From IMG/VR virus record IMGVR_UViG_3300008448_000470, positions 1 through 28,105 of that record: 28,105 nucleotides of DNA. One strand, 5' to 3'. Shown here piece by piece: positions 409 through 26,001 of the stretch; the first letter of the stretch is position 1, and the number at the start of each line of letters is the position of its first letter. The DNA is from a virus. The position numbers and the translations under genes were made by a program. The notes beneath the pieces are model-generated. The model saw only the letters and a program-made list of their open reading frames with translations. It searched no databases and was not told where the DNA came from.

Positions 409-570
409 TTATCGTCCCCCTTTTTTCATGATGATTGATTTCACCATGTTCAAAATAAGTTGAATTGTCGAGTTCGCCTCAACCTTTTTCGTTCGTCCCA
501 GCCAGTATTCAATCAGGAACACCAACAAAATCAAGGCAAACTGTGTGCAGTCAAAAGTTTCGCAGTTCAT
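409..570 (-). CDS. Small membrane protein, 53 aa (lysis-module, possible holin-like)
   Basis: The frame opens at ATG 570, overlapping the stop of the lipoprotein gene as ATGA, and closes with TAA at 411-409. The product has two Cys near the N-terminus, one strong membrane segment (about residues 11-24, FALILLVFLIEYWL), a basic/acidic stretch (GRTKKVEANS), a second amphipathic helix (TIQLILNMVKSIIM) and a basic tail (KKGGR). Size, topology and position in the cassette fit a holin, antiholin or other lysis accessory, but no sequence motif proves this. ATGA coupling to the lipoprotein gene supports that it is genuine. Confidence 0.7.
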   Translation of the reverse strand: MNCETFDCTQFALILLVFLIEYWLGRTKKVEANSTIQLILNMVKSIIMKKGGR

Positions 571-1307
571 AAGATGTTGCAGTCAATTGGTCCAAGCGGC
601 AATGACTGGTCCTTTGGATAGGCAATGACAATCTGACTTTTGTTGTTGGCCCTCAAATAAAAATGAACCGCGTGCGAAACGCCGCCAAGATATTCCTTGG
701 ACCCTGGTCCAGTTTCGTGCCCCGAATAGACAACAATCGAACGCCCATCATAGTTCAAAACGAATTTGGTTCCTGGTTTTGGTCTTTGCCCTGGTCCCCA
801 CATCATATTCAACGAAAACATTTCCTGTTCAGGGGTCAGGTTGGCTTTTTGCCAGACTGTTCCACGAGACCCCACGCCAATGGGTCCAGATTCCGAGGGT
901 GTCCATTGCTTGGCCCATCGTGTTTTGAATAGGTCAGAACACGCCACGTTTGGCACATACTTTTTAAACAAAACACATTCGCGTTCTAAATGTTTTTCGA
1001 TTCCGTGTGTGACTGTTTCTGGCGTTCGGGAAATGTGCTTGTCATCTGTGGTCAAATAGTGACTTTCAGCCACGAACTGACCGACATGAGGCATCTTGAT
1101 CACACGACGCCAGCGGTTTCCTGGTCCAACGTGTTCAACTCGATAGTCGCCAATCGCGCATTCGTTTTTTTTTTGCGTGGTCGTGGTCGAACTTTGCGTG
1201 ACCGTTGTGGGAACTTCACCAATCGGACGGTTGAACTCATCAACCACAGGCTGGCAACCCAACAAAAGCCCACAAAACAATGCAAAAATTAAGGTTTTTT
1301 CCATCAT
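567..1307 (-). CDS. Lipoprotein, 246 aa; possible double-psi beta-barrel wall-active protein
   Basis: The N-terminus is a signal peptide with a lipobox ending LLLGC (Cys18), followed by Q, which predicts an outer-membrane-sorted lipoprotein. Residues about 35-48 are a Thr-rich linker ending in Lys, encoded over a run of ten A. The mature domain has several Cys. The last third (PKPGTKFVLNYDGRSIVVY, then GHETGPGS, then LGGVSHAVHFYLRAN) has the spacing of a double-psi beta-barrel as in RlpA-like proteins; this is my reading, not proven, and the usual catalytic Asp is not evident. The gene overlaps the 87-residue membrane protein upstream by ATGA and the 53-residue one downstream. In this context it may be the wall-degrading or outer-membrane-disrupting lysis factor; a lipoprotein of lysogenic conversion is the alternative. 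Confidence 0.75.
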   Translation of the reverse strand: MMEKTLIFALFCGLLLGCQPVVDEFNRPIGEVPTTVTQSSTTTTQKKNECAIGDYRVEHVGPGNRWRRVIKMPHVGQFVAESHYLTTDDKHISRTPETVTHGIEKHLERECVLFKKYVPNVACSDLFKTRWAKQWTPSESGPIGVGSRGTVWQKANLTPEQEMFSLNMMWGPGQRPKPGTKFVLNYDGRSIVVYSGHETGPGSKEYLGGVSHAVHFYLRANNKSQIVIAYPKDQSLPLGPIDCNIL

Positions 1308-1567
1308 CTTGCCCCTGATTTGCGCAGTTCTTTTTCGAGTTCCTTGATTTGCTGTGATTGTTCAGCGTTGACCCTTGCCTCATAAGTGATTTGCGTGACG
1401 ACGATTGCCATTTTTTCATTCAGTGACATGATGCTCATGCCAATCCAGAACAAAAAGCCCGAAATCACGGCCCAAAACATCTTGTCAACAACATCACCAA
1501 ATACAAGACGGCGTTTTTCGTCGTATTCCATTGTCAGTTTTCCCCAAGCTGCAACCATAGTGGTCAT
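1304..1567 (-). CDS. Single-TM protein with coiled coil, 87 aa (holin- or i-spanin-like)
   Basis: The protein has a roughly 28-residue charged N-terminus, one membrane segment (about residues 30-48, MFWAVISGFLFWIGMSI) and a C-terminal helix rich in E, Q and K (NAEQSQQIKELEKELRKSG) that looks like a coiled coil. That layout matches an inner-membrane spanin subunit (N-terminal TM, periplasmic coiled coil) and also some single-TM holins. It lies directly after a 42-residue lipoprotein that would be a natural outer-membrane partner. The start at 1567 has an AAGGGG site about 7 bases upstream; the stop overlaps the next start as ATGA. The assignment to a lysis role comes from context and topology only. 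Confidence 0.75.
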   Translation of the reverse strand: MTTMVAAWGKLTMEYDEKRRLVFGDVVDKMFWAVISGFLFWIGMSIMSLNEKMAIVVTQITYEARVNAEQSQQIKELEKELRKSGAR

Positions 1568-1816: not shown

Positions 1817-4081
1817 CTATCTTGGACCAACACACTTTATTTCAAAACTTGCATCAGCCCTTGCAAAAGACCCCTGCGTTGTGCCGAAACCAAATTGCGT
1901 TGGACTATTTAAGGCGTCTCGAAAACAGATTGCGCCAACAGCACCGCCAGCATTGCAAACACAAGTTGGAAACGCCGCGAATGCAGTTGAAAAATTTGCA
2001 ACATATTGTCCAGCCGCAGTTCTTGTGATTGACGAAATGCCCGAGGACCTGTCCATTGAGCATGGCGAGGCCGAGCAGTTTAAGTTTACAGTTGCACTGA
2101 CAACGCGTTCTGTTGTCGATGGTGTGCCAGGCAAAAGGCCGCCGACAAGAACAGGCATTGGCACAGCTTGGGTCAGTGGTGTGATTTCCCATTTGATGTC
2201 TCGTTGGCCGATATTTGGCAAAGCATCAGCAATTGCAGTTGAATTGGAAATTGACCCCGATTCAATGTTTTGCTCATAGAAAACCCTTAGTGTTTTTTGC
2301 CCTGCCGAGGCAAAACTAAATGTTCCACACACTCTGAATGGCGTTGTTTGTGCGCCTGCAATTGTTGCCGTGTTGAAATATCTTGACAGCTTCCCTTTGC
2401 CTTCTTGCAAAATTGTCTGCGCATTGTTTGGCGTTTCGACAATTTGAAAAATCTGTTCGGCTGCACTGCTTGTTGGCAAGCTCAAAAATGCATTCATTGT
2501 TGCACACGCCAACACGTCACCGCTTGTTGGTTGCAGCCAAGAAACCGAAACGCTTTCATCTGCCGCTGTGCAAGTCGTGCCAGTAGGTGCAGTCGTGCCA
2601 GCGCAACCAATCTGCGCAGGAATGACCCCAATCCCTGGATTGTTTGTCAGAGTTAAAGATGGGTGCGTCATCCCAGTATATGATGAAACTGACGCAGTTC
2701 CTAAGTTTGGATTGCCGCCTGCAATATTCGCATCAACTCGCCAAGCAACTTGATCAGGTCTGAACGCTTGTTCTGATGACAATGGGAAACGGTAAACTAG
2801 AATTTCCAGGTCAGCCGTGTCGCCGCCAGCAAACAACTGTGCAGTCGCCCCAGTGAATGTTTGAGCTTGAATTTGAAATGTCACATTCGAAAGTGTTGAA
2901 TTGATTGTGATTGGCCTTGGTGCCATATTCTGAGCAACAATGTTTGCTGCATCAGTATAGTTCACAACGCTTGAAGAGTGATTTGTCCCATCACTAATTC
3001 TGTAATAAGTGTAGCGGCCTAAGCCAGCAACGGAACTGTTTGAAGTATTTGCAGTTATAACAAAAACATAATTTCCAGGCGCAAGACTGCTGAACGTGAT
3101 TCCAGGGATTCTTGTAGCAGGTGCCGAGGCAGACCCTGTGACCGTTGGTGCAGAACAATCAGTGTCGGCAGGAAAATTTGAAAAAGAACCTGGCGAAGCG
3201 ACATTCCAAATACAGTTCAAGGCTGGCGTGTACTTAATTCCCCCGACAAAAGTCGCCTGACTCACTTGTGACAAGTTGTCAGCTTCACCCAAGGTCACTT
3301 GATCAAGCGCAACCAGTGTCGCGTCTGCCGTTGAACGAACGCGCCATTTGATTGAACCAGATGTCGGGCAAGGGAAATTTAGAGTCAAAGGTCTGACAGA
3401 TGCAAAAGCAGAAAACACTTGTTGTGCAAGCTGCACGTTTGAACCGTCTGTTGCCTCGAAAATCAGGTTTGCATCTGCGCCCTTATAATGAACGCGAGCC
3501 AAACAATTGCGACCCCTTAAGATTTCAGGGATTGTGATTGCTTGAGTTTCAAAAACTTGTGCCGCTGCCGATGCGTCGAAGGTCACAGACTGCAATCCAA
3601 ACAAAAGGTTTGAACCTGTGGTCACAACCGCGACAACACCGCCAGTGTTTGTGAACCCTAGTGTGCCGTCCTCAAAGCCTGAATTTTCAATGAGGTTGAT
3701 TCCTGCGCCCGACCCAGAACCTGAACCGATAGCCTTGAAATTTGTGCCGTCATTTGTGAACTCAATCTTTGCCGCTGTATTGTTCCAACGAATTGCAGGG
3801 GCAGGACTTGCCCCAGTGTTGAACTCAAGGGATTGATTCGCCGCTGTGCCTGTTCCAAGCTGCATTCTGTTCGTGCGCACGCGCAGGTTGTCTTGTCCTG
3901 GCGTCGTCGAAATCTGTGGGTTTGAAACCGAGTTGTTGTCAAACTCTAGGACCTTGTCACCTGAACTGACCTTGCGGCCAATCTTGGTGCGGTCTGTGTT
4001 CAAAACAGTGTCTGCGGCCAATGCCGTCACTGTCGTCAACAAAATGCCAAGAAAAATTTTGTTCCTCAAAAATGCTTTCAT
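1817..4081 (-). CDS. Secreted-type, cysteine-rich fibre/adhesin-like protein, 754 aa
   Basis: The protein begins with a Sec-type signal peptide: basic N-terminus (KAFLRNK), hydrophobic core (IFLGILLTTVT) and an ALA cleavage site after residue 22. Residues about 44-70 and 84-108 are two similar beta-rich modules (LEF...P.I), a pattern seen in tail-fibre shafts (IRWNNTAAKIEFTNDG). A GSGSGSGAG linker (119-127) leads into a module starting INLIENSGFEDG, resembling the opening of carbohydrate-binding jelly-rolls. The remainder is Ser/Thr/Ala-rich beta structure with 14 Cys, many closely spaced. It sits directly after the beta-helix tail protein with an AGGGGG ribosome site, so by position it is the host-recognition protein. 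A signal peptide and many Cys are odd for a virion protein assembled in the cytoplasm; an exported adhesin or lysogenic-conversion factor is the alternative. Confidence 0.8.
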   Translation of the reverse strand: MKAFLRNKIFLGILLTTVTALAADTVLNTDRTKIGRKVSSGDKVLEFDNNSVSNPQISTTPGQDNLRVRTNRMQLGTGTAANQSLEFNTGASPAPAIRWNNTAAKIEFTNDGTNFKAIGSGSGSGAGINLIENSGFEDGTLGFTNTGGVVAVVTTGSNLLFGLQSVTFDASAAAQVFETQAITIPEILRGRNCLARVHYKGADANLIFEATDGSNVQLAQQVFSAFASVRPLTLNFPCPTSGSIKWRVRSTADATLVALDQVTLGEADNLSQVSQATFVGGIKYTPALNCIWNVASPGSFSNFPADTDCSAPTVTGSASAPATRIPGITFSSLAPGNYVFVITANTSNSSVAGLGRYTYYRISDGTNHSSSVVNYTDAANIVAQNMAPRPITINSTLSNVTFQIQAQTFTGATAQLFAGGDTADLEILVYRFPLSSEQAFRPDQVAWRVDANIAGGNPNLGTASVSSYTGMTHPSLTLTNNPGIGVIPAQIGCAGTTAPTGTTCTAADESVSVSWLQPTSGDVLACATMNAFLSLPTSSAAEQIFQIVETPNNAQTILQEGKGKLSRYFNTATIAGAQTTPFRVCGTFSFASAGQKTLRVFYEQNIESGSISNSTAIADALPNIGQRDIKWEITPLTQAVPMPVLVGGLLPGTPSTTERVVSATVNLNCSASPCSMDRSSGISSITRTAAGQYVANFSTAFAAFPTCVCNAGGAVGAICFRDALNSPTQFGFGTTQGSFARADASFEIKCVGPR

Positions 4082-4089
4082 GCGTCCCC

Positions 4090-4695
4090 CTATTCTGTCA
4101 CCGTTCCAAGAATTGATGACGTGTTTGCCAAGTCGTCAATTTCCAGAACGCAGTTGTTGAATCTTGTGTCTCTGATTTGCGTGTAGTCCGAACCTGCATC
4201 AATGACAATTGCCTTGTCGCCAGCGGTCGAAAAATTCACAAATCTGCCGTCCAAAACTTTCACCCCATCAGCCGAAATTTGCAAGCCTGTGGTTGCAACC
4301 CCTCTGATGATTGAAACGCCTGGCGCAAACTCAATGCGGCAGTTGTTCTTTGTGATTTGTTGTGTCGAAGTCAGGGTCAAATCTGAAATGACCAAGATTC
4401 GCGCACCTTGTGGGACGCCAGAATCTGCCATTGCAGCATTCAGCGTGGCATGAGTTGCCAAAGGTCCAGTTCCCACGATTGCAGAATAGATTTGATTAAA
4501 CTGGTCGAGTGAATCAGAAACCGTGTCAATGTATTCAATCCATTCTGACAAGTTCTGAAACAGCCAATTCATATATTCGCGTGGCGGTCGTTCATCAACG
4601 GCCCATCCTGCCGCTTTTTTTCCTGATGTTGGTTCAAGAACCTGCGGCCCTGTGACCCCAAGCATCCAGTCTGGTTTGATTGTTGGTTTACTCAT
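4090..4695 (-). CDS. Short tail fibre/spike protein with beta-helix region, 201 aa
   Basis: The N-terminal part (about residues 1-60) has the W-rich motif PPREYMNWLFQNLSEWIEYID, which recurs near the start of many phage tail-fibre and collar-type proteins. From about residue 95 the sequence turns into short repeated strands with stacked hydrophobic and Asn/Asp positions (LTLTSTQQI, CRIEFAPGVSIIRG, LQISADGVKVLDGRFVNF, KAIVIDAG, DTRFNNC), typical of a right-handed beta-helix as in tailspikes. At 201 residues it is short for a complete spike and likely acts as a baseplate adaptor or partner of the next, much larger protein. An AAGGGGG site lies ahead of ATG 4695. Confidence 0.75.
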   Translation of the reverse strand: MSKPTIKPDWMLGVTGPQVLEPTSGKKAAGWAVDERPPREYMNWLFQNLSEWIEYIDTVSDSLDQFNQIYSAIVGTGPLATHATLNAAMADSGVPQGARILVISDLTLTSTQQITKNNCRIEFAPGVSIIRGVATTGLQISADGVKVLDGRFVNFSTAGDKAIVIDAGSDYTQIRDTRFNNCVLEIDDLANTSSILGTVTE

Positions 4696-4707: not shown

Positions 4708-5391
4708 TTATAAGCTTGTAAATAAGCCGCCCACGATTGGGTCAAACACTGTTCCAAAACCTGAATTGTCAGGATTGAACCCATCAAAAGCAAACTTTTT
4801 GTCATTTTGTCGTTTCACTGTTGCGAATTTGCCGCCAGCCAATGGGTCAAGCGTGTCACCAAACCCCCGACCAGGCAAAGACCCTGCGAATGCGAACGGT
4901 TCGGTTGCATCGAACGACCCAATGCCGTCGATTCGAACCCCTGCCGCAATCACCTTTTTCATTTCCCTGTGCAAAACATTGATTTGTTCTTGCGTGAATT
5001 GCAAGTTTGCCATCAACGAAAGTTCTGCATAGGCCCCATCATTCAGAATCACAAGGGTTGCCCCTGTCAAAGTCCTGAAAGTTTGGATGACCGATTCTGG
5101 TTCACCCTCTGAAATGTTCTGACCTATCTTGACTTTCAGTGCCTGCCGATAGTCCGCGTCTGATTGACCAGGAACTCTTGAAAGCCCCACAATCACGCCG
5201 ATTCGATCAAGCTGAACACCTGCCGAAACGTCCAAAGTCCTGTCAGTTGCAAGCAAAGCAAAGACATTTTCAAGGTTTTGAATCTCATTGACCACAGCCT
5301 CAATGACCCAGCCGACTCGCTGTTTTTCCCTGTATTGGGTCAACAGTCTGTCCTTTGCTTTTTCAATGTGGTCGTTGATTGTTGGAATCAT
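4708..5391 (-). CDS. Baseplate wedge protein, DUF2612 / tail protein I-like, 227 aa
   Basis: This protein follows the J-like baseplate gene, the position of gpI-type proteins. Its body (HIEKAKDRLLTQYREK, then LDVSAGVQLDRIGVIVGLSR, then SDADYRQALKVKIGQN, then EPESVIQTFRTLTGA) is characteristic of the DUF2612 family, which joins the baseplate wedge to the fibre region. The C-terminus is Gly/Phe/Asp-rich (GRGFGDTLDPLAGGKFATV, GFGTVFDPIVGGLF) with two similar short repeats, probably the fibre attachment part. Its start overlaps the stop of the J-like gene. Confidence 0.85.
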   Translation of the reverse strand: MIPTINDHIEKAKDRLLTQYREKQRVGWVIEAVVNEIQNLENVFALLATDRTLDVSAGVQLDRIGVIVGLSRVPGQSDADYRQALKVKIGQNISEGEPESVIQTFRTLTGATLVILNDGAYAELSLMANLQFTQEQINVLHREMKKVIAAGVRIDGIGSFDATEPFAFAGSLPGRGFGDTLDPLAGGKFATVKRQNDKKFAFDGFNPDNSGFGTVFDPIVGGLFTSL

Positions 5392-6848
5392 GGACTTGTC
5401 ACCGTCACTTTGAGGTTGTCGGTCACTGGTATTTCGTTCGCCAAAATGATCACGTTGTCATCAGTCGTTGGACTTGGCAACTTGCCGATGCGAATGACCA
5501 CATCAAGAATGCCAGGAACGCCAGCGAAAACCGAAATCAATTGTGGATAAGTGATGATGTCGCCGCCAATGCCTCGGGTGTTGATGAAATTCACGATGGC
5601 ATCACGGACAACATCGTCGCCAGTCGCAGGATATAACAAAGAATCAACCGTCAAAGTCACATCACAATAGATTGATACGTTTGTCGGTCTTGAAAATTTC
5701 ACGGTTTGCGAAACACCCATTGAGTCCAGGACTGAACCAGTCTCAAAGCCGAATGTTTCAATGCCTGCGGGTTTTGATGCCCACAAAGTGTCGAAAATGT
5801 CTTGGTCATCACCGCCAGCAACGACCGATTCAAATGATTTTGGCGGTCTGCCGTTGACATCAACAACCGTTGAAATGTTTTCGAAAATCAAAGCATCTGT
5901 GACGCCCTCAACATTCAAAAGCCTTGCGCGAATCGCATCGGGTGTGGCGGCCCCTGCAACCTGCAAGGTGTTTGCCCTGCGTGCGCGAAGTTCCAAATCT
6001 GTTTCGACGTTCCTGCCGACGATTGCTGCCTCAATGTTCTTGACCGAATCGAGTCCAAAAACTGGCGTGTTGATCACGGTCAGTGTTCCATATAGTGCCT
6101 GCGTTGGTCCAAACTCAATCGCGGTCACATCAACCTGACCCTGCGAAACGCCCTCAACAGTTGAAACCAATGTGGTTAAAACCCCTGTGGTGTTGTTCGA
6201 AACCACAATCAAAGGCTGCGGTTGTTTGCCGTCTGCCCCTGCAAAAGTGATTGTGAACCCAGGTCCCATGCTGCCAGTGACAACAACGCCCGACAAACTT
6301 GGCAACGCATTCAACGCCGCTTGAATTTGTGGTGCAGTTGCATCAAAATTCAGCAAACTTGAAAGTTCGCCCCTGTATGAAAGCCGAAATGAACCCGACA
6401 ATGGCAGGGTTGCGAAGGTCAAAAGCTGAACCTCATCAACGCCAGCAACCAAAGTTCTGTCAGAATCTGTCACGAACCTTGCCTGTGTGTTGCCTGCAAC
6501 AGCGAGTTCAGTCCCTTGCGGCACCAAAGTCCCAGCGGTTCCAAACAAACACACGTTTTGAATTTTTGATTTTGTGGCTGGCTGCCTGACAATCCCTGTG
6601 ATGGCTGCGACGTTGTCCAATGACACGCCCTCGGCGGTGTCTGGATATTGTGAGTTGTAAACGTCCTCGGAAAGTTCCCAGATTTCAGCCTCGCGGTCAG
6701 CAAAAACGCCGACCAAGTTCCCGAAAACTGACTGCGGCAAAAGGTTGATGAAATTTCCAAACCGCTGCCTAAGAGCGTCCTCAATTTCACCCTTGATGTC
6801 TGACAGACGTTTCCTTGTGAAACCGTCCGAGTTCAAACCAAATGCCAT
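5388..6848 (-). CDS. Baseplate J-like protein, 486 aa
   Basis: Length and layout fit the baseplate J / Mu gp47 family that builds the wedge of contractile tails. The N-terminus has GFTRKRLSDIKGEIEDALRQ and FADREAEIWELSEDVYNSQ, then LDNVAAITGIVRQPAT and the characteristic GTLVPQGTELAV. The middle carries an inserted Gly/Thr-rich domain (about residues 150-235), and the conserved NVETDLELRARRANTLQ and the late segment DDVVRDAIVNFINTRGIGGD follow. An AGGGGG site precedes ATG 6848. Its stop overlaps the DUF2612 gene. Confidence 0.92.
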   Translation of the reverse strand: MAFGLNSDGFTRKRLSDIKGEIEDALRQRFGNFINLLPQSVFGNLVGVFADREAEIWELSEDVYNSQYPDTAEGVSLDNVAAITGIVRQPATKSKIQNVCLFGTAGTLVPQGTELAVAGNTQARFVTDSDRTLVAGVDEVQLLTFATLPLSGSFRLSYRGELSSLLNFDATAPQIQAALNALPSLSGVVVTGSMGPGFTITFAGADGKQPQPLIVVSNNTTGVLTTLVSTVEGVSQGQVDVTAIEFGPTQALYGTLTVINTPVFGLDSVKNIEAAIVGRNVETDLELRARRANTLQVAGAATPDAIRARLLNVEGVTDALIFENISTVVDVNGRPPKSFESVVAGGDDQDIFDTLWASKPAGIETFGFETGSVLDSMGVSQTVKFSRPTNVSIYCDVTLTVDSLLYPATGDDVVRDAIVNFINTRGIGGDIITYPQLISVFAGVPGILDVVIRIGKLPSPTTDDNVIILANEIPVTDNLKVTVTSP

Positions 6849-6857
6849 CGCGTCCCC

Positions 6858-7217
6858 CTAACCAAATGCTTCGCTGAAATCTATCACGCCTGTGCGCGTG
6901 CGAATAGAACAATCAACCTTGAGTTTCCTTGTTCCTGACTCAAAGTCTAGTTCAAAAGTCAGCAACTCGACAACCCCAGGTGTGTCCAAAATAGTTTGTT
7001 TCAAAACACCATCGACAACTTGAATGTTTGGGTTCTTTTTTAATATGTCCTGGAAATAAGGAACACCCACAGACAAATCAAGAAACCATTCCCCCAAAAA
7101 TGTGCGCAATCTTTGAACAATCAACTGCCTGATTGCGTCATCTGATTGGGTCAACACAAGATCACCGTTCACAAGGTCCAAGTCATAAGTCTGTTCATTC
7201 AATCTTAAGTCGCCCAC
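6858..7217 (-). CDS. Baseplate wedge protein, gp25/gpW-like lysozyme-fold, 119 aa
   Basis: The sequence matches the small gp25-type wedge protein: a beta N-terminus (YDLDLVNGDLVLT), DDAIRQLIVQRLRTFLGEWFLD with the conserved pattern of arginine-rich helix then W-F/L-D, VGVPYFQDIL, and a C-terminal strand pair (LTFELDFESGTRKLKVD). The start codon is GTG at 7217 with an AGGGGG site. It lies between the spike region and the J-like protein, the normal place for gp25 homologues in myoviruses. Confidence 0.9.
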   Translation of the reverse strand: MGDLRLNEQTYDLDLVNGDLVLTQSDDAIRQLIVQRLRTFLGEWFLDLSVGVPYFQDILKKNPNIQVVDGVLKQTILDTPGVVELLTFELDFESGTRKLKVDCSIRTRTGVIDFSEAFG

Positions 7218-7225
7218 GTTTCCCC

Positions 7226-7510
7226 CTAGATGATTTTTCCAAGTCCAAGCACTGTGCCAGGTGCAAGCACCGCCCCTGTTCCTGTTGCTGGCGAAACCTG
7301 AACAGGTGCCGCCGCCACGTTCATGGGTGTTGTTCCTGTTGGACTCACATCAGCGTTCGCCACAATGTGCGCAACGATTTCATTCGCAATGATTTGCCAT
7401 TTTGCCAATGCCTCGGCGTCTTGTTCTGGCGTATATGTCGCGCCAGTGTCTGCCTTGATTGCATTCCAGATGGCCGAACCCAGTGCGTTCCCAGTCCCAG
7501 TCAGTGCCAT
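7226..7510 (-). CDS. Small baseplate/spike-associated protein, 94 aa
   Basis: A 94-residue protein whose first half is helical (TGTGNALGSAIWNAIKADTG, TPEQDAEALAKWQIIANEIV) and second half is low-complexity Ala/Val/Pro/Gly/Thr-rich beta sequence. Small proteins of this kind are common between the spike and gp25-like genes of phages and may be needed for spike assembly, but no family function is established from what I see. ATG 7510 is preferred over the in-frame GTG at 7516 because an AAGGGG site lies 5 bases upstream of the ATG. Confidence 0.75.
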   Translation of the reverse strand: MALTGTGNALGSAIWNAIKADTGATYTPEQDAEALAKWQIIANEIVAHIVANADVSPTGTTPMNVAAAPVQVSPATGTGAVLAPGTVLGLGKII

Positions 7511-7512
7511 GT

Positions 7513-8145
7513 TCACCCCTTCATTTGGTCAAGCAATGTTTTCAGTTGCGCAAACTGCGCAGCATTCAACAAAGGCCCGACCGCAGTCTGTGCCTGCACC
7601 AATTGTTCAAGTGTCTTTGAAAAAAGGTCAATCAGTTCTAGTTGCGCGTTGCCATTGACACCAATCTTGAATTTGCCGTCATCCGAAAGCTGAATCAAAG
7701 CATCACCAAACTGGACGTTCATCTTACTTGGGTCTGCAACCTCAAAGGCACCGCTTTGAGGCCATGGTCCAGGAATGCAAAGCGCATCTGAAAGGCTATG
7801 TTTTCGGGTGTCGGCAGGGTCAACGACGCCGCCATTCTGTGCCCATCTGTCAATGGACCGTTCTGAAAAAATCAAAAGAACTGAATCACCTTTTTGCAAA
7901 GGGAAATAAACGATTGCGTTCGAACTGCGTGGGAATACCACAGGAACATTGGGAATCACTGGCAATGCCTCGACCCTTGTCCCTTGGCTTGTCACAAATT
8001 TACGTTTCAAAGCTGGCTGCACGTCTGCCATTTGTGTGCTTGGGTTGAATGACACAACCTCGCCAGGCATAGCCGAATGAAGGTCAACCAACCTTGTTTC
8101 AATCGCTGACTTGATGACCTCTGAGAGTGTGGGTGTTGCCGTCAT
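7513..8145 (-). CDS. Baseplate central spike protein, Gp138/gpV-like, 210 aa
   Basis: Residues about 20-110 match the N-terminal OB-fold of Gp138/gp45-type spikes: MPGEVVSFNPSTQMADVQP, then VIPNVPVVFPRSSNAIVYFP, then KGDSVLLIFSERSIDRW and a downstream RKHSLSDALCIPGPWP, which is a common signature of this family. A beta-strand stretch follows (NVQFGDALIQLSDDGKFKIG), probably the needle helix, and the C-terminus is helical. The protein would form the trimeric membrane-puncturing tip at the end of the tube. It overlaps the hub gene by ATGA. Confidence 0.85.
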   Translation of the reverse strand: MTATPTLSEVIKSAIETRLVDLHSAMPGEVVSFNPSTQMADVQPALKRKFVTSQGTRVEALPVIPNVPVVFPRSSNAIVYFPLQKGDSVLLIFSERSIDRWAQNGGVVDPADTRKHSLSDALCIPGPWPQSGAFEVADPSKMNVQFGDALIQLSDDGKFKIGVNGNAQLELIDLFSKTLEQLVQAQTAVGPLLNAAQFAQLKTLLDQMKG

Positions 8146-8945
8146 TTGATTTCTGCCTCAATGATTGTGAACCAGTCGCCAGTGAATGAGTCGCCTCGAT
8201 GCTTGACCCTTTGAGGAACAAGCACACCGCGCACGAAATTTGACTGCAACAACACTGGTCTGTCAGGTTTGATTTTGGGGTTCAGCAATGAAGTGACCTC
8301 AATGCCATTGTCCTTTTTTTTCGGGGAACCGATGAGGCCTGTTGATGAACTCAACAAAACAGCTTCCTCGCCAGTCCCCTCGCCTGGTTTCAGAATCTGA
8401 ATGGCCCCATCTTGAATTGACCAAATCAGCCCCTGTTTTGATGTCAGTTCGTCAAGCTTGTCTTTGCTTGAACCCGAAAGGGTCAAGCCGTTGGCAAAGG
8501 TTTCGTTCTGAACCCCTTGTTGCACCTTTACAGGCAAGCCAAATGACTGCGAAACAAAATTCAAAGCGGTTTGGAAATTCACCCCTGGCGCAAAACTTTT
8601 GTTCACTGTTGAATCATTATATGCAGCCTCGCCGTCGCCAGCCTCGAACTCTGTGATGATGTCCGCGCCCTCGCGTCTGGACATTGCACGCCCGACATCA
8701 CCCTGAAAAATGGTTTCGTTCCTGCCGCCATAGCCTGCCTGCAAAATCACCTGCATTTTTTCTTTTTCGGCCAATGCCCTTGAATCTTTTGTCAGGTTAT
8801 AGATTGCCATTTTGCATTTGTTTGGTTCACTCGTTGAGGTTCGTTCGATGTCGAACACCACGCGCAAATCAGTGAAGCGTTTGCCGTACTGACCAGCAAC
8901 CCCAAACTGAAATGAAACTGTTCGTTCAAACAAAAATTCACTCAT
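8142..8945 (-). CDS. Baseplate hub protein, gp44/gpD-like, 267 aa
   Basis: This is placed directly upstream of the spike gene and has beta-barrel hub features: FTDLRVVFDIERTSTSEPNK, MAIYNLTKDSRALAEKEKMQ, VILQAGYGGRNETIFQGDVG and DIITEFEAGDGEAAY. A central helical segment (NFQTALNFVSQSFGLPV) and the late motif SLLNPKIKPDRPVLLQSNFV followed by VKHRGDSFTGDWFTIIEAE are typical of small myovirus hubs that hold the spike under the tail tube. It overlaps the preceding gene by 8 bases. Confidence 0.85.
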   Translation of the reverse strand: MSEFLFERTVSFQFGVAGQYGKRFTDLRVVFDIERTSTSEPNKCKMAIYNLTKDSRALAEKEKMQVILQAGYGGRNETIFQGDVGRAMSRREGADIITEFEAGDGEAAYNDSTVNKSFAPGVNFQTALNFVSQSFGLPVKVQQGVQNETFANGLTLSGSSKDKLDELTSKQGLIWSIQDGAIQILKPGEGTGEEAVLLSSSTGLIGSPKKKDNGIEVTSLLNPKIKPDRPVLLQSNFVRGVLVPQRVKHRGDSFTGDWFTIIEAEIK

Positions 8946-9270: not shown

Positions 9271-10017
9271 TTAACCCCCAATGACGCCAAATTTTTGCAG
9301 ACCCTGAAACAGCAATGACCCCGATTGTTTTTCTTTTTCTGTTGCTGCCTCGGTTGCCTGTTTTCCAAGGCTTGTTGATGCCGCCCCATGCGCCTGACCT
9401 GTGGCAATGTTTTTGATCAACACAGATTCAGGTTTCACGATGCGAATTTGTTGCGCCTGCAATGAAAAACGCAAGCTGCCCCCATCATTTTGCACCCTTG
9501 GAAATGTCACGTTTCGAATGACCATGTTGTCAAACTTGCGGCGTTTCGTGACGATTGTGAACAAAGTCTTTTTGCGCCAAATGTCCTCAATTGCTTTGCG
9601 TGCAACATCGGCAGGGTTCAATGCGCGTTCGTTGCCGTCTGCATCTTGGCCCCTGACAGTGTCCCCAAAGATCGAGGCACCCAGAAAACCCCCTGCAATT
9701 CCTGCAAGCTGTGGGTTGAAACCCCCTTGCCTGCCTGCCGCTGCAACTGCACCCGATGTGACAAGGCTTGCTGCCGTCCCTTTCAAGGTGATTGGTGTTT
9801 CTGAAATGACACCGTCAATCTGCAAGGTGATTGGTCGCAAGGCAATGTTGTCGGTCACGTCTGGACCGTCCTCAACAGGGAACGCCGTCACCTCTGCATC
9901 ATAGGTCGGGGTTTCTGAAATCGTGGCATCAACCAAAAGCAGGTCAATTTTCCCCTCGGTGTCCATGAACTTGGTTCGAATCGGTGTGTTTCCTGTCAAA
10001 AATGAAAGCAACGCCAT
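9271..10017 (-). CDS. Dit-like / LysM-region baseplate protein, 248 aa
   Basis: The gene follows the tape measure gene with a TAATG overlap, where distal-tail (Dit-like) proteins normally lie. The first 90 residues are beta-rich (KIDLLLVDATISETPTYDAE, NIALRPITLQIDGVISETP), followed by an Ala/Gly-rich insertion, a long helix (PADVARKAIEDIWRKK) and the conserved TIVTKRRKFDNMVIRNV then FPRVQNDGGSLRFSLQAQQI. The latter is the typical Dit-like N-domain end. The C-terminus is Gln/Glu/Lys-rich. It probably forms the ring joining tube and baseplate hub. Confidence 0.8.
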   Translation of the reverse strand: MALLSFLTGNTPIRTKFMDTEGKIDLLLVDATISETPTYDAEVTAFPVEDGPDVTDNIALRPITLQIDGVISETPITLKGTAASLVTSGAVAAAGRQGGFNPQLAGIAGGFLGASIFGDTVRGQDADGNERALNPADVARKAIEDIWRKKTLFTIVTKRRKFDNMVIRNVTFPRVQNDGGSLRFSLQAQQIRIVKPESVLIKNIATGQAHGAASTSLGKQATEAATEKEKQSGSLLFQGLQKFGVIGG

Positions 10018-11636
10018 TAGTATGCAACCCCCGACTTGAATGTTCTGTTTGATTGTCGCAAGACCGATTCAAGCCCATCGGTGACACCTGTTCGCGCAGC
10101 CCCTGCGATGTCGTTCGGGTTCGCCCCTGGCGGCACGCTGATGTTCAGATTGATGTTGTTCTGGTTGTTCTGGTTTGCTTGCACTGAACCGCTTTGTGCA
10201 GGTGCAGACCCTGGTTCAATTGAACGCAAACCGCCCACAACACCGACTTGATCGGCAGCCCCTGCCGTGAAATCTGCCGTTGCCTGTGCGCCTGATTTGA
10301 ACGCACCCCCCAAAGCCGCAGCAATGGACCCGATTCCTAGTTTTTCAACCAAGAATGAGACCGCTTGACCAAGCTTTTTGAATGCCTCGACCACAACGCC
10401 AACAATCACCGAACCGATCTTGAACAAGATGCCAAGCAAGCTTGAAAGCAAGTTGAAAAATACTTTGAAAATGGAAACCAGTCCCTCGAAAATGCTGCCA
10501 AAAAACTTGAACGCATTTGGGAACTTGGTCTTGAAAAAATCAAGCAACAAACCAAGCGCAGAGTCTCGACCTTGCGTGAATGCCATGATGTCCTCTGCAA
10601 TCAATGCAATGACACCGACAAGCGCAGCAATTGCCAAAGGTATTGCCATGGCTTTCAGGTTCAAAACCCCGAACGCCGTCGCCAAACCATAGACCGCAAG
10701 TGTGGTCGCACCCAAAACTTTCAAAAACATTGGGTTCATCAGCAAATAGTCTAGACCTTTGTTGAGGTATTCCAGGACATTGCCTGTGCCGCCGAATGCT
10801 TTGGCAAGATTTCCAAAGATTTCGACCGCGCCAACCGCTGCCTTGGTCACAAGATTGACGAACTTGCCAAGAACTTGAAAAACTTTGCCGATGTTTTGTG
10901 CAATGATGTCCCTGTTCTGTGCCATGTAGTCAGCAAAAGCACGCATCAGCTTGGTGATTTCAGGAATCAAAGCATTGCCAAGGATGTTTCGAACCCCTGT
11001 CAGTGCCGCTTTTGATTCATCAAGTGTGTCGTTGAACTCATCAGCCGCACGCGCCTGCGCTTCACTCAAGACAATCCCATATTTTTCAGCCTTTGCCCCT
11101 GCCTCATCAATGGCCGCAGACCCTTGTTTGAGGAACGGCACCATGCTGGCACCCGAACGACCGAACAATTGCATTGCCAATGCCGCACGTTCTGGACCCT
11201 CTGGCAATGTTTGGAATCTGTCAGCGATTGCACGCAACGCCTGGTCGCCTGACTTGAATGATTTTGGGTCAAGCTTAAGACGTTGGAACGCCTTGGCCGC
11301 ATCACCCGAACCCTGTTGTGCCGCAAGCAAGTTCCTTGAAAGGAACCTCATGCCGCCAGCAAATTCGCCGCTTTCGATGTTCGCAAGCTTTGCTGCAAAT
11401 TGTAGTTTTTGAAGTGTCTCGACATTGAGGCCAAGCATTTCAGCCGTGTGCAAAGCCTGGTCGCCCGCATCTGCCGTGAATTTTGCGAACCCGAACATGG
11501 TCCCAGCCGCAGCAACCGCCGCCAGTCCAACCGCGTTCACCTTTGATTGCAACCCAGCCATGTTTTTTTCAAGCTGTTGCAGAGGTTTCATGTCTACATC
11601 GAAACCCCATTTTGTGAACAATTCTTGAACCGTCAT
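10017..11636 (-). CDS. Tail tape measure protein, 539 aa
   Basis: A long helical protein, Ala/Leu/Lys-rich, located right after the tail chaperone gene, as expected for the tape measure. It has an N-terminal coiled region (residues 16-60), a conserved tape-measure block (MLGLNVETLQKLQFAAKLA, FGRSGASMVPFLKQG, AADEFNDTLDESKAAL) and hydrophobic segments (about 315-355 and 385-430) that may enter the host membrane at ejection. The C-terminus is Asn/Gln-rich (SVQANQNNQNNINLNIS). By the usual scale of about 1.5 Angstrom per residue, the tail would be short, near 80 nm. ATG 11636 overlaps the -1 frame stop of the chaperone as ATGA. Confidence 0.93.
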   Translation of the reverse strand: MTVQELFTKWGFDVDMKPLQQLEKNMAGLQSKVNAVGLAAVAAAGTMFGFAKFTADAGDQALHTAEMLGLNVETLQKLQFAAKLANIESGEFAGGMRFLSRNLLAAQQGSGDAAKAFQRLKLDPKSFKSGDQALRAIADRFQTLPEGPERAALAMQLFGRSGASMVPFLKQGSAAIDEAGAKAEKYGIVLSEAQARAADEFNDTLDESKAALTGVRNILGNALIPEITKLMRAFADYMAQNRDIIAQNIGKVFQVLGKFVNLVTKAAVGAVEIFGNLAKAFGGTGNVLEYLNKGLDYLLMNPMFLKVLGATTLAVYGLATAFGVLNLKAMAIPLAIAALVGVIALIAEDIMAFTQGRDSALGLLLDFFKTKFPNAFKFFGSIFEGLVSIFKVFFNLLSSLLGILFKIGSVIVGVVVEAFKKLGQAVSFLVEKLGIGSIAAALGGAFKSGAQATADFTAGAADQVGVVGGLRSIEPGSAPAQSGSVQANQNNQNNINLNISVPPGANPNDIAGAARTGVTDGLESVLRQSNRTFKSGVAY

Positions 11637-19806: not shown

Positions 19807-22157
19807 CAGCCTCTGACCCCTGATGCAACTGCGGGTTTCGCTGTGCTGAACTTGTCGCCAGTTTCAACATTCGACTTGATGCCGTCTGTGTTGCTATCCT
19901 TCGAAACCTTTTCGCCCTTTTGATTGAATAGGGCTAAACCGCTTGGGTCATGCATTAGATATTCAATGCCATTGTCGCCGCCCACAACAAAACCCTTGAT
20001 TCCGTTTTTAACCATTTCCTCGTATGCTTCTTTTTTTGACAGACCTTTGCCCTTCATTAGTGCGCGTTCAAGTTGAATGTTTGGTTGCGAATTAAACAAT
20101 GATGAAACGTGTTGTTCAACGCCCATTTTTTGGGCAGCTTCACGAACTGCGTTCGGGTTTTGTTCAACATTCACGATTGAACCTTTTTCTGCAAAAGCTG
20201 TGTAAACTTGACCAGTTTTTTCGCCAATGCCGTTTTTTGAAACGTACTGTTCAGAATAACTTTTATCAGGTGAAAACGATGTCCCAACGCCACGCTTTTG
20301 ACCATAGTTTGTTGAAAGGTCTTTTTCGTTTCCAACAACTGATTCAAAGCCTTTCAGGTTGTTGTCTAAAGAACCGTGAAACAATGGGTTGTCGATGTCA
20401 TACTGTTCAGACAATGATTCCAAATCAGATTCTGAAATGTTTGTTTCGTTTGAAACTTTTTTTGTGTTCCCTGACCCAGGCTTTCGTCCTGCACCTTCGC
20501 GTGCGCCGCCCCAGGTTCCCTCATCAAGTTCAATCTGCATTTCCTTGAATGCGCCGTCAAACTTTGGGGAACCGCCGCCGCCCTCGCCTGGCAATGGTGT
20601 GCCTGATGGTTTGAACCCTTTGCCTGCCAATCCCATGACTTTTTCTGCCTCATCACTTGTCATGTTGAATGCCTTTTGCAGCATGAACAGACCTGATTCG
20701 CGTGGCAAGTTGCCTGTTGCAACTGACTGAACAATTTCAATCATGCTTGTCACCTGTGCGCCGTTCAGTGCCTGTTGCTGCACGTTTTCAGCTTGTGGTG
20801 CAGGCTGTGCGCCCTCGACCATTTCGCCAGTGATTGGTTCAGCTTGTCGCAAAGTTTCCTCGATTTGGGTTTCCATGCTGTATTTGCCGCCAGCAAAACG
20901 AGACAATGACACCTCATCAGCGTCAACAACACCGTTTTGAATGTATATCTGGTCAGTTTCTGCCTGTGTTTTGCGAAGTGTTGCCGTTTCCATGTCGTCG
21001 AGTTGATACAACGGCTTGAATGTCAGGTCCAGACCCTCGGCTGCAATGCCAAGTTCTGCCGCAATCATCTTGAAAACCTGCAAAAGCTTGGGTTTCAAAT
21101 AGGTTTCTTGCTGGCTTGCAATGTAGTCATACCAGTTGTCCTGTTCATGTCTGCCAGTGCCGCCCATTCCTGTGGGTGATTCACCCAAAAGGACAGTGCG
21201 TGGGATATTCGTGCCCCCAACAAGTCGGTTTTCAACCTTGCCAAGCAATTCAGAAACGCCAGCAACTGACCCAATCTTGTATTCGAAGTCCTCGCCCTCG
21301 GCATCAATCACCACAGCACGCGCAACCGATCTTGAAAGGTTCGCAATTTCCATTCGCTTGATGATCAAGTCGTCATTGTCAGCCGCAATTTGGTCGGCCA
21401 AGTTCTTGATTTTGAACACGGCAATTCGAAAGTCCTGCAATGTTGAACTGGCTGCGTCATGACTCAACTGATAGTTTCGAATCGAGTTCTGCAAGTTGTT
21501 CAGGACCGAGTCGCCCCAATAGTTGTTTTGCTGCATGAACCGCAAAGGCAAAGTTTTGCCGTCGAATCTGATGATTCGTGTTGCGTGAATCTTTGTCAGG
21601 ACCTCAACCGTCGAACCTGAAACCCTTGGTTGGTATGAATACACCCGAGGGGTCAAATAGTTTGGGGACAAAAGATTAAAGTCCATGTCCTCATGTTGCG
21701 CGTAAAGTTCCCACATCGAAACCGCATTCACCCCACGCAGGAATGCATTGGGTCTCATCGGTTCTTGCAAGTTTCGCATTTCATCGGTCAGCATGATCAA
21801 GCCTGCGCCGCCGTACCGTCGCGCCATTTTCCAAGCGTGTGCGAACTTTGGCAGAATCTGCATTTCAGAGGCTTTCATCAAAAGCTTTTTGGCCTGTTCC
21901 TTGTCGATTCCCTCAAGTTCGAACCCTTCGCGCAAGGACTCATCAACCAAGGCGTCAACAATCTTGGCCGCCATTTCGTCGGCTGCATACAAGTTGTCAG
22001 CGTCAACCTCTGGTAATCGTTCCCAATTGACTTCGGCAGACAAACGCTTGTCCATTCCCTTGACCCCAAGTCCAGTCAGGACGTTGGCCCAGCCATCCAT
22101 GTTCACGCGCTTTTGAATCAATGCTTTTGATTGTTTTGAAATTTGTTTCTTTGCCAT
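19806..22157 (-). CDS. Portal protein (DUF1073) with C-terminal ADP-ribosyltransferase-like domain, 783 aa
   Basis: Residues about 20-440 match DUF1073 portals: GWANVLTGLGVKGMDKRLSA, ADEMAAKIVDALVDESLREG, AWKMARRYGGAGLIML, PRTVLLGESPTGMGGTGRHE and NWYDYIASQQETYLKPKLLQ. A Gln/Pro/Gly-rich tail and a GTWGGAREGAGRKPGSG motif (Trp549) follow. Residues about 585-760 look like a PolyVal/PARP-type ART fold: PLFHGSLDNN (His594), GTSFSPDKSYSEQYV (Tyr634), VYTAFAEKGSIVNVE, then GIKGFVVGGDNGIEYLMHDP (Glu732), an H-Y-E order. The extension is more AT-rich than the portal part, hinting at acquisition. An ordinary portal of this type ends near 450-550 residues. Portal call firm, ART call good but unproven. 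Confidence 0.88.
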   Translation of the reverse strand: MAKKQISKQSKALIQKRVNMDGWANVLTGLGVKGMDKRLSAEVNWERLPEVDADNLYAADEMAAKIVDALVDESLREGFELEGIDKEQAKKLLMKASEMQILPKFAHAWKMARRYGGAGLIMLTDEMRNLQEPMRPNAFLRGVNAVSMWELYAQHEDMDFNLLSPNYLTPRVYSYQPRVSGSTVEVLTKIHATRIIRFDGKTLPLRFMQQNNYWGDSVLNNLQNSIRNYQLSHDAASSTLQDFRIAVFKIKNLADQIAADNDDLIIKRMEIANLSRSVARAVVIDAEGEDFEYKIGSVAGVSELLGKVENRLVGGTNIPRTVLLGESPTGMGGTGRHEQDNWYDYIASQQETYLKPKLLQVFKMIAAELGIAAEGLDLTFKPLYQLDDMETATLRKTQAETDQIYIQNGVVDADEVSLSRFAGGKYSMETQIEETLRQAEPITGEMVEGAQPAPQAENVQQQALNGAQVTSMIEIVQSVATGNLPRESGLFMLQKAFNMTSDEAEKVMGLAGKGFKPSGTPLPGEGGGGSPKFDGAFKEMQIELDEGTWGGAREGAGRKPGSGNTKKVSNETNISESDLESLSEQYDIDNPLFHGSLDNNLKGFESVVGNEKDLSTNYGQKRGVGTSFSPDKSYSEQYVSKNGIGEKTGQVYTAFAEKGSIVNVEQNPNAVREAAQKMGVEQHVSSLFNSQPNIQLERALMKGKGLSKKEAYEEMVKNGIKGFVVGGDNGIEYLMHDPSGLALFNQKGEKVSKDSNTDGIKSNVETGDKFSTAKPAVASGVRG

Positions 22158-24980: not shown

Positions 24981-25085
24981 TCACAATGCCCCCTTGAGTT
25001 TCATCCAAATTTCAAAAATCATCACAAGGTTCGCAAGCGTTGCCAGGTATGTGATGACCACAAAGAAAACTAGACCTTTGGTCAT
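24981..25085 (-). CDS. Tiny single-pass membrane protein, 34 aa
   Basis: ATG 25085 overlaps the stop of the 264-residue gene as ATGA, and the frame ends with TGA at 24983-24981. The product is MTKGLVFFVVITYLATLANL followed by VMIFEIWMKLKGAL: one membrane helix (about residues 5-27) with positive ends. Its coupling suggests it is truly translated. I do not recognise it; small membrane proteins of this kind are easily missed in annotation. Confidence 0.6.
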   Translation of the reverse strand: MTKGLVFFVVITYLATLANLVMIFEIWMKLKGAL

Positions 25086-25876
25086 TTCGCCGACCTGATT
25101 CCTGGTTCAATCCATTCGCCCCATTTTTCAAGGCCTCGCCCTGTGCTTGTGTATTTGGTCAAACGCTTGTCCCAATCGGGCACGATTTTCCGATAGACCG
25201 AAACAATGTCCAACGCCCTTGCGGTTGCAAGCATTGCACCCTGGTCATCATTGTCAGACCAACGAAATGACAATGCCTCAAGGCAAAAGGTTGGCAACCC
25301 AAGCAATTGCAGCAATGTTTTCGGCAAGACCTTCGCGGACGCTGCCAGTGCGCAGATGTGGTGCGGCCATAAGGGGTCAGCGAAGTTGAACCAGACCCAT
25401 TTGCCGCCAGTTTCGCGTTTCACAATCTTGGTTGCGAACAGAACAGGCCTTGCATATTTGACCAACCATTGCGGCCAACCTTGAAAGGCAGGTTTCTTTT
25501 TGTGTGGGTTGTCCTTGCATCTGTGTTCATAGTGCGGCCATGGGAACTTGGTCGTTCCCCTGCAATCGCGTTCCCAACTTTGCGCCAAAAACCCATGTTT
25601 CAATCTTGAAAAAAAGATTCTGCGTGCATTGTCGGTGTGTCCAAGGTGTCCCAACGCGCAGGCAATCGGCATCAACTGGTCGCGTGTCAGATTCCAGGGA
25701 TTGTTCCAAGGATATTGCGAAGGATGCCTGCAAACTAGACCTTTTTCGACTTCGAACATTTGAATCATTTGGCAAGGGTCATCAGAAAAAAGAACCGAAA
25801 GACCTGTGAAGTGTGCCGAATCACCGCCGTCGCCGCCCTCAACAACAACAAAACCATTTGTGTCACGAATCAACAT
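25082..25876 (-). CDS. Unknown phage protein, 264 aa, Trp/His-rich
   Basis: From ATG 25876 (GAGG 7 bases upstream) the protein begins MLIRDTNGFVVVEGGDGGDS and continues with RHPSQYPWNNPWNLTRDQLM, HLGHTDNARRIFFSRLKHGF, FPWPHYEHRC, and GWPQWLVKYARPVLF. It is rich in Trp, His, Pro and Arg and has no signal peptide. GGDSAH-type and RDQLMP segments recur, as far as I remember, in uncharacterised phage proteins of about this size; the fold may be an all-helical barrel, but I do not assign a function. Being flanked by two tiny membrane proteins, both coupled by overlap or a short gap, suggests that the three act together, possibly at the membrane. Confidence 0.75.
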   Translation of the reverse strand: MLIRDTNGFVVVEGGDGGDSAHFTGLSVLFSDDPCQMIQMFEVEKGLVCRHPSQYPWNNPWNLTRDQLMPIACALGHLGHTDNARRIFFSRLKHGFLAQSWERDCRGTTKFPWPHYEHRCKDNPHKKKPAFQGWPQWLVKYARPVLFATKIVKRETGGKWVWFNFADPLWPHHICALAASAKVLPKTLLQLLGLPTFCLEALSFRWSDNDDQGAMLATARALDIVSVYRKIVPDWDKRLTKYTSTGRGLEKWGEWIEPGIRSAK

Positions 25877-25884
25877 TTCAAACC

Positions 25885-26001
25885 TCACTGACCAAGCGGC
25901 ACTGTTGCCGCATAGATTGCCGCTGCCATTCCAAAACCCATGCCGCAAATCAGTCCTGCAATGATTCCGATTGCAAAACCGTCCTCAAATCGTTTCATCA
26001 T
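25885..26001 (-). CDS. Tiny Gly/Ala-rich membrane protein, 38 aa
   Basis: The start ATG at 26001 overlaps the 93-residue gene stop as ATGA. The sequence has a charged N-terminus (MMKRFEDG) and a Gly/Ala/Ile-rich helix (about residues 9-33, AIGIIAGLICGMGFGMAAAI) with glycine-zipper-like spacing, then VPLGQ. It is probably an oligomerising inner-membrane peptide. The function is unknown; regulation of the neighbouring 264-residue protein or superinfection effects are guesses. Confidence 0.6.
   Translation of the reverse strand: MMKRFEDGFAIGIIAGLICGMGFGMAAAIYAATVPLGQ

Follow-up and report, generated by a model that had tools for sequence, protein, structure and literature searches.

A candidate Sec-exported, cysteine-rich fibre at the tail-fibre locus of a phage probably infecting Bdellovibrio-like predatory bacteria

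Results and Discussion

The stretch of viral DNA analyzed here (IMG/VR record IMGVR_UViG_3300008448_000470, positions 1 to 28,105, referred to as the window at its full length of 28,105 nucleotides) encodes a modular, cysteine-rich protein with a predicted Sec signal peptide (SP). Its gene lies in the slot after those for baseplate J, a DUF2612 protein and a tail-fibre adaptor and thus qualifies by position as a tailed-phage fibre gene (Table 1). We give an even chance to the reading that the product serves a contractile-tailed phage of Bdellovibrio-like hosts as its distal receptor-binding fibre and that this fibre is built in two compartments. The more general idea of a mobile two-part module in phages of Bdellovibrio-like predators, consisting of a cytoplasmic docking domain and a Sec-exported, disulphide-stabilised fibre that would be assembled after lysis, is put forward more tentatively. 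Both draw on sequence evidence, i.e., the signal peptide and its recurrence, paired and even-numbered cysteines, the joint occurrence of an adaptor domain with a fibre module, and homology of the tip to that of a bacterial adhesin. From these features we infer which host the phage has and that the fibre is exported, forms disulphides, docks upon lysis, becomes part of the virion and binds glycans.

Table 1. Features of the fibre locus and neighbouring genes in the window (aa, amino acids; SP, signal peptide)
Feature	Position	Strand	Details	Basis
Predicted exported fibre-like protein (SP-fibre)	1817..4081	-	754 aa, 14 mature Cys	ORF reading and homologues
Predicted Sec-type signal peptide	4016..4081	-	residues 1-22, cut near ALA/AD	rule-based predictor
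N-module	3710..4012	-	residues 24-124, GSGSG linker at its end	leave-one-out HMM and alignments
CBM-like beta-sandwich module	3278..3700	-	residues 128-268, Cys pair 193/238	weak profile match
TNF-like lectin tip	2786..3259	-	residues 275-432, Cys pair 290/309	phmmer and profile to 8okw
Fourth module	2132..2764	-	residues 440-650, Cys pairs 493/504 and 526/585	cysteine alignment
C-terminal module	1820..2131	-	residues 651-754, Cys pairs 669/674 and 707/750	cysteine alignment
Tail-fibre adaptor	4090..4695	-	201 aa, no SP	PHROG tail fibre families, E 2e-4
Adaptor N-domain (tail-fibre attachment motif)	4489..4695	-	residues 1-69	PHROG tail-fibre match and weak structure match
Adaptor C-domain	4093..4488	-	residues 70-201, predicted right-handed beta-helix	AlphaFold and beta-helix matches
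DUF2612 baseplate protein	4708..5391	-		Pfam E 1e-10
Baseplate J protein	5388..6848	-		Pfam E 9e-14, PHROG 6
Lipoprotein-like gene	567..1307	-	LLGC lipobox	sequence; no Pfam/PHROG match above chance
Small one-helix membrane protein	1304..1567	-	charged tail	sequence

Gene, Signal Peptide and Module Layout

The fibre gene starts with an ATG at position 4081, with a GGGGG ribosome site close upstream. The deduced protein begins with MKAFLRNKIFLGILLTTVTALA, followed by AD, and cleavage is predicted after one of residues 20-23. Signal peptides were called with a purpose-made rule set and not with SignalP, and single calls are less certain than the overall contrast: the signal peptide that a sequence-only reading of the window had proposed at this locus was recovered by the rule-based prediction and exceeds chance, as one is predicted for 18/18 genes in the corresponding slot vs. 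1/272 of the remaining ORFs with 150 aa or more on the same contigs.

The fibre-like strands, GSG linker and CBM-like part recognized in that reading were all borne out, while their arrangement had to be revised to N-module, linker (GSG stretch at residues 119-127), CBM-like module, TNF-like tip and two C-terminal modules. Within the N-module, which we propose to be the docking end of the fibre, the first ~40 residues are best conserved (D-x3-IG-x2-SS-..-K-..-FD-G). The CBM-like module gave a weak profile match to the endoglucanase CBMs 2zex/3oea (E 0.7-0.9), and the protein ends with ...EIKCVGPR. Searches of the window protein against Pfam and PHROG yielded no useful match, and AlphaFold applied to the whole fibre (three sequences) returned a mean pLDDT of 39, too low for a usable model. 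A trimeric autotransporter adhesin was considered and rejected, as the protein has neither a C-terminal membrane-anchor barrel nor a Pfam domain.

Recurrence of the Signal Peptide at the Fibre Slot

The 18 phages with a predicted signal peptide in the product of the gene following the adaptor are Bdellovibrio phage phi1422 and 17 others with a readable gene at that place, which were collected by searching with the major capsid protein, with alignments of the fibre and with the adaptor C-domain; since the 18 were partly picked by fibre homology, 18/18 is not an unbiased frequency. An independent check is provided by L074, L077, L078, L079 and L081, which were found by the adaptor C-domain alone and of which 5/5 fit. 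One relative by major capsid protein, G010 (L028), has no recognisable SP-fibre after baseplate J and is uncounted because its adaptor is not identifiable. The slot-gene signal peptides occupy the same position as in the window protein and are tripartite (n-h-c) with small residues at -1/-3, and this holds true across unrelated tails in all 18 cases.

As a control, we inspected 49 proteins from the fibre loci of nine cultured phages whose structural modules are homologous and whose hosts differ (Vibrio, Pectobacterium, Aeromonas, Rheinheimera, Shewanella, Salmonella and Hafnia); none has a signal peptide. Felix-O1-like and related split loci (e.g., Salmonella SBA-1781, Pectobacterium Arno18, Hafnia SarahDanielle) have baseplate J, a DUF2612-type protein, a short adaptor and the fibre in the same order, but their fibres contain few cysteines and fall under the same 0/49. 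In cultured relatives this slot is the site of the virion fibres. Signal peptides are likewise missing from proteins whose similarity is limited to the N-terminal "NDG" shaft motif, and tblastn for relatives of the window protein in cultured phages or plasmids retrieved none. Every homologue found has a signal peptide; the earlier reading had listed a lack of such homologues among the findings that would speak against it. No second hydrophobic helix after the signal peptide was apparent in eleven homologues checked, nor was an obvious membrane anchor present in homologues whose C-terminus was checked.

Phage phi1422 (NC_019525), a cultured phage described as a lytic myovirus that infects B. 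bacteriovorus, encodes portal, hub, spike and baseplate proteins that are distant homologues of those in the window. Its gp67 is a fibre without signal peptide, and the next gene product, gp68 (annotated as hypothetical), combines a signal peptide with eight and hence an even number of mature cysteines; gp67 differs from the window adaptor in having no C-domain and gp68 from the window fibre in having no N-module. A gp68 relative in another virus record, L086 (43% over 333 residues), with signal peptide and four mature cysteines constitutes a 19th SP-fibre. The tail of L086 has no match to the baseplate J of the window and represents another type, while baseplate J of L031 is Mu-like and L032 and L033 have yet another type. 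The SP-fibre family is therefore not bound to one tail type.

Further proteins with signal peptides occur in the fibre loci of other carriers, and could be taken to mean that the fibre serves as an envelope landing site for tails or that virion maturation takes place at the inner membrane, prior to lysis. In phi1422, gp75 also has a signal peptide. G007 (L025) contains more fibre-like genes with signal-peptide-like starts (5390-7549, 9580-10758 and 10819-end), as does G008 (L026) at 7875-8513 and 6493-7890, the latter two having been read by eye and not called by the predictor. With no anchoring segment in the fibres checked and no precedent for tailed phages found in the literature searched, we regard assembly at the membrane as highly improbable.

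Cysteines

The 14 cysteines, including close clusters, are present as described before, and every one resides in the mature part. In an alignment of nine homologues, cysteine columns co-occur as pairs: 193/238 is found in 9/9, both columns of 526/585 are filled in one set of seven, and those of 493/504 and of 707/750 in one set of six for each pair; 290/309 occurs in five, with one extra homologue having a cysteine at 309. Leaving out two fibres cut by contig ends, the mature cysteine count is even in 14 of the 15 complete SP-fibres that have any cysteine (G008, with three, is the exception); the nominal probability of 5e-4 overstates independence, as the family shares descent.

Another large fibre-like protein of the same phage (L023:6051-9887, minus strand) has 1278 aa and 13 cysteines but no signal peptide, and its gene is adjoined by a short collagen-like gene (L023:9901-10338). 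It is possibly another receptor binder, and that it could be the real one counts against our main explanation. Virions of Agrobacterium phage Milano, which has cysteine-rich virion receptor-binding proteins, are rich in disulphides, and no export has been reported; most of the reported bonds lock sheath and baseplate, whereas the pairs in the window fibre would lie within one chain (PMC10811340). On account of the 13-cysteine fibre and of Milano, a high cysteine number is not diagnostic, and we rejected it as a sign of export when taken by itself. The same two observations speak for a signal peptide that is not used, i.e., a hydrophobic N-terminus of a cytoplasmic fibre or a signal masked by folding, with disulphides formed after lysis as may happen in Milano (PMC10811340). 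This we consider very improbable in view of tripartite signal peptides in all slot genes across unrelated tails and in none of the 49 controls. Another cysteine-containing protein of the window (25082-25948, minus strand; 288 aa, eight Cys) is encoded beside packaging genes and has no Pfam/PHROG match above chance.

Joint Occurrence of the Adaptor C-Domain and the Fibre N-Module

The adaptor gene sits 8 bases upstream of the fibre gene. The adaptor N-domain gave a weak profile match to the solved short tail fibre 9cuy (residues 2-56, E 0.077), and the C-domain, predicted by AlphaFold with a pLDDT of about 90-96 for residues 71-180, is proposed to be the dock for the exported fibre. In the baseplate J protein, residues ~139-233 form an inserted module with matches to PHROGs of tail sheaths and major tail proteins and to the putative sheath of phi1422 (33% over 101 aa), i.e., a mobile tail domain.

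The C-domain was detected in 13 phages, on three unrelated N-domains (the window type, that of L032, which matches L033, and that of L081). In 13/13 cases an SP-fibre with the conserved N-module comes next, the match in L053 being weak (4e-3) and in the right place. Adaptors of L031, L033, phi1422, G007 and G004 have no C-domain, and four of these five phages have fibres without N-module, L031 being borderline (0.011). A one-sided Fisher test of the association gives 1.2e-4 (0.0016 with L031 counted against). The adaptor of L032 has an N-domain 48% identical to that of L033 and a C-domain 51.5% identical to that of the window, and the L081 adaptor combines a third N-domain with the same C-domain. 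In G008, L078 and L081 the fibre tips vary while the N-module is kept, the pattern of a conserved attachment end and a variable receptor-binding end. The adaptor C-domain scan revealed no fused adaptor-fibre gene.

The simplest reading of these data is that adaptor C-domain and fibre N-module form a docking pair that may work on different tails. Alternatively, both might be merely co-inherited as adjacent stretches without binding each other. As the swap point in L032 falls within the adaptor, where its two domains meet, function is favoured over mere co-inheritance, for such a swap is expected if C-domain and fibre act as a unit. In L031, L033, phi1422, G007 and G004, docking would have to differ because their SP-fibres occur without an adaptor C-domain.

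A soluble receptor blocker or decoy, exported or set free to coat receptors on infected cells or debris and thereby stop re-adsorption or superinfection, would need just export and receptor-binding modules. It fits a lytic phage and the neighbouring putative lysis genes downstream: judging from sequence features, the lipoprotein-like gene possibly encodes an outer-membrane spanin and the small membrane protein an inner-membrane spanin or holin. A decoy leaves the conservation of the N-module and its joint travel with the adaptor C-domain unexplained, and we consider it improbable. Three origins had been offered for the window protein, and an exported protein that joins the particle late fits best, as the adaptor docking domain travels with the fibre N-module across unrelated tails.

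Relationship to Bdellovibrio Adhesins and Probable Host

Residues 276-412 of the window protein match PDB entry 8OKW (phmmer E 1.1e-11), which is also reached by a five-sequence family profile (E 1.2e-10) and by homologue L052 alone (E 2.5e-10). The crystal structure shows the TNF-like tip of Bd2734, which belongs to the mosaic adhesive trimer (MAT) proteins of Bdellovibrio bacteriovorus; such proteins bear signal peptides, resemble phage fibres and have been detected at the predator surface (PMC10769870). Bd2734 and the window protein have in common the signal peptide, a modular fibre-like architecture and the homologous tip with a corresponding cysteine pair. On the other hand, MATs are encoded by bacteria and the window protein by a phage of ~39.6 kb, in the tail-fibre slot beside a tail adaptor and with an N-module that follows the adaptor C-domain. 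Its tip of known type is internal and not C-terminal, with no C-terminal S74 or other known MAT tip; a search for an S74 domain in the window found none, and identity with a MAT of S74 type was rejected. In MATs, a conserved ~130-aa beta-rich N-domain comes right after the signal peptide; MAT entries in the PDB are C-terminal fragments only. The window N-module resembles phage-fibre shaft motifs. The suggestion of a gene taken from a host adhesin agrees in part with the homology of the tip, which transfer in either direction may have produced; the remaining protein belongs to a phage-specific family. Two narrow pattern scans of genome contigs found no cellular homologues of the window fibre.

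The similarity to MATs is also the basis of the main rival explanation, in which the fibre is displayed on the infected or lysogenic predator like a MAT, alters prey recognition and is never part of the virion. It draws on the homology of the tip to that of Bd2734 and on the nature of MATs as SP-bearing, fibre-like surface proteins (PMC10769870), and, given the Mu-like tail of L031, some carriers may be temperate. Yet in 18 genomes the gene is invariably found at the tail-fibre slot, the N-module travels with a tail adaptor domain, and there is no obvious membrane anchor in the C-termini checked. No integrase was recognized among the genes of the window phage scanned with Pfam (some small ORFs lay outside the scan), and the architecture exists in phi1422, which is reported as lytic, so that the adhesin of lysogens originally suggested has lost ground. 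We consider a host-surface adhesin unlikely, though less so than the other alternatives to a virion fibre.

Record G001 (39,749 bp) encodes an identical fibre and has a 141-bp direct terminal repeat at its end, from which a genome of ~39.6 kb results; 534 of 562 sampled 50-mers of the window are present in the G001 pieces compared. The homology to the MAT tip and the relationship to phi1422 indirectly suggest that the phage probably infects Bdellovibrio-like predatory bacteria. The portal protein (783 aa) has a ~220-aa C-terminal extension past the Phage_portal_3 match (19809-20480, minus strand) that gave no Pfam or PDB match above chance and, judged by eye, might at a guess be ADP-ribosyltransferase-like. 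The early region of the same phage encodes a YiiX/YaeF-like C92 amidase (L023:5281-5859).

Proposed Assembly and Implications

Virions of tailed phages are generally taken to be completed in the cytoplasm. In the assembly that we propose, the adaptor would be made there, its N-domain attaching to the baseplate and its beta-helix C-domain being presented. The fibre would pass through Sec to the periplasm, where the paired cysteines would become disulphides. Upon rupture of the envelope by holin, endolysin and spanins, virions would meet folded fibres, and the N-module could then dock on the adaptor C-domain, leaving the TNF-like and CBM-like modules to bind glycans on the host surface. Late addition of a fibre is plausible because T4 tail fibres attach in vitro to finished particles. 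Export from a tail-fibre region is also known for lambda Lom, a Sec-exported product that forms an outer-membrane barrel of lysogens; unlike the window fibre, Lom is not modular and has no adaptor partner.

Tail fibres and adaptors are known kinds of proteins. The exported fibre appears undescribed as far as the literature searched shows, which covered few subscription journals and contained no report of a Sec-exported receptor-binding fibre. The idea can be tested directly, because the cultured phage phi1422 has the architecture. If it is true, part of a virion would be made in a different compartment, and disulphide chemistry would be open to phage receptor binders. It would also physically connect the fibres of phages with the adhesins by which predatory bacteria recognize prey; as a further possibility, the MAT adhesins of predators may descend from exported phage fibres.
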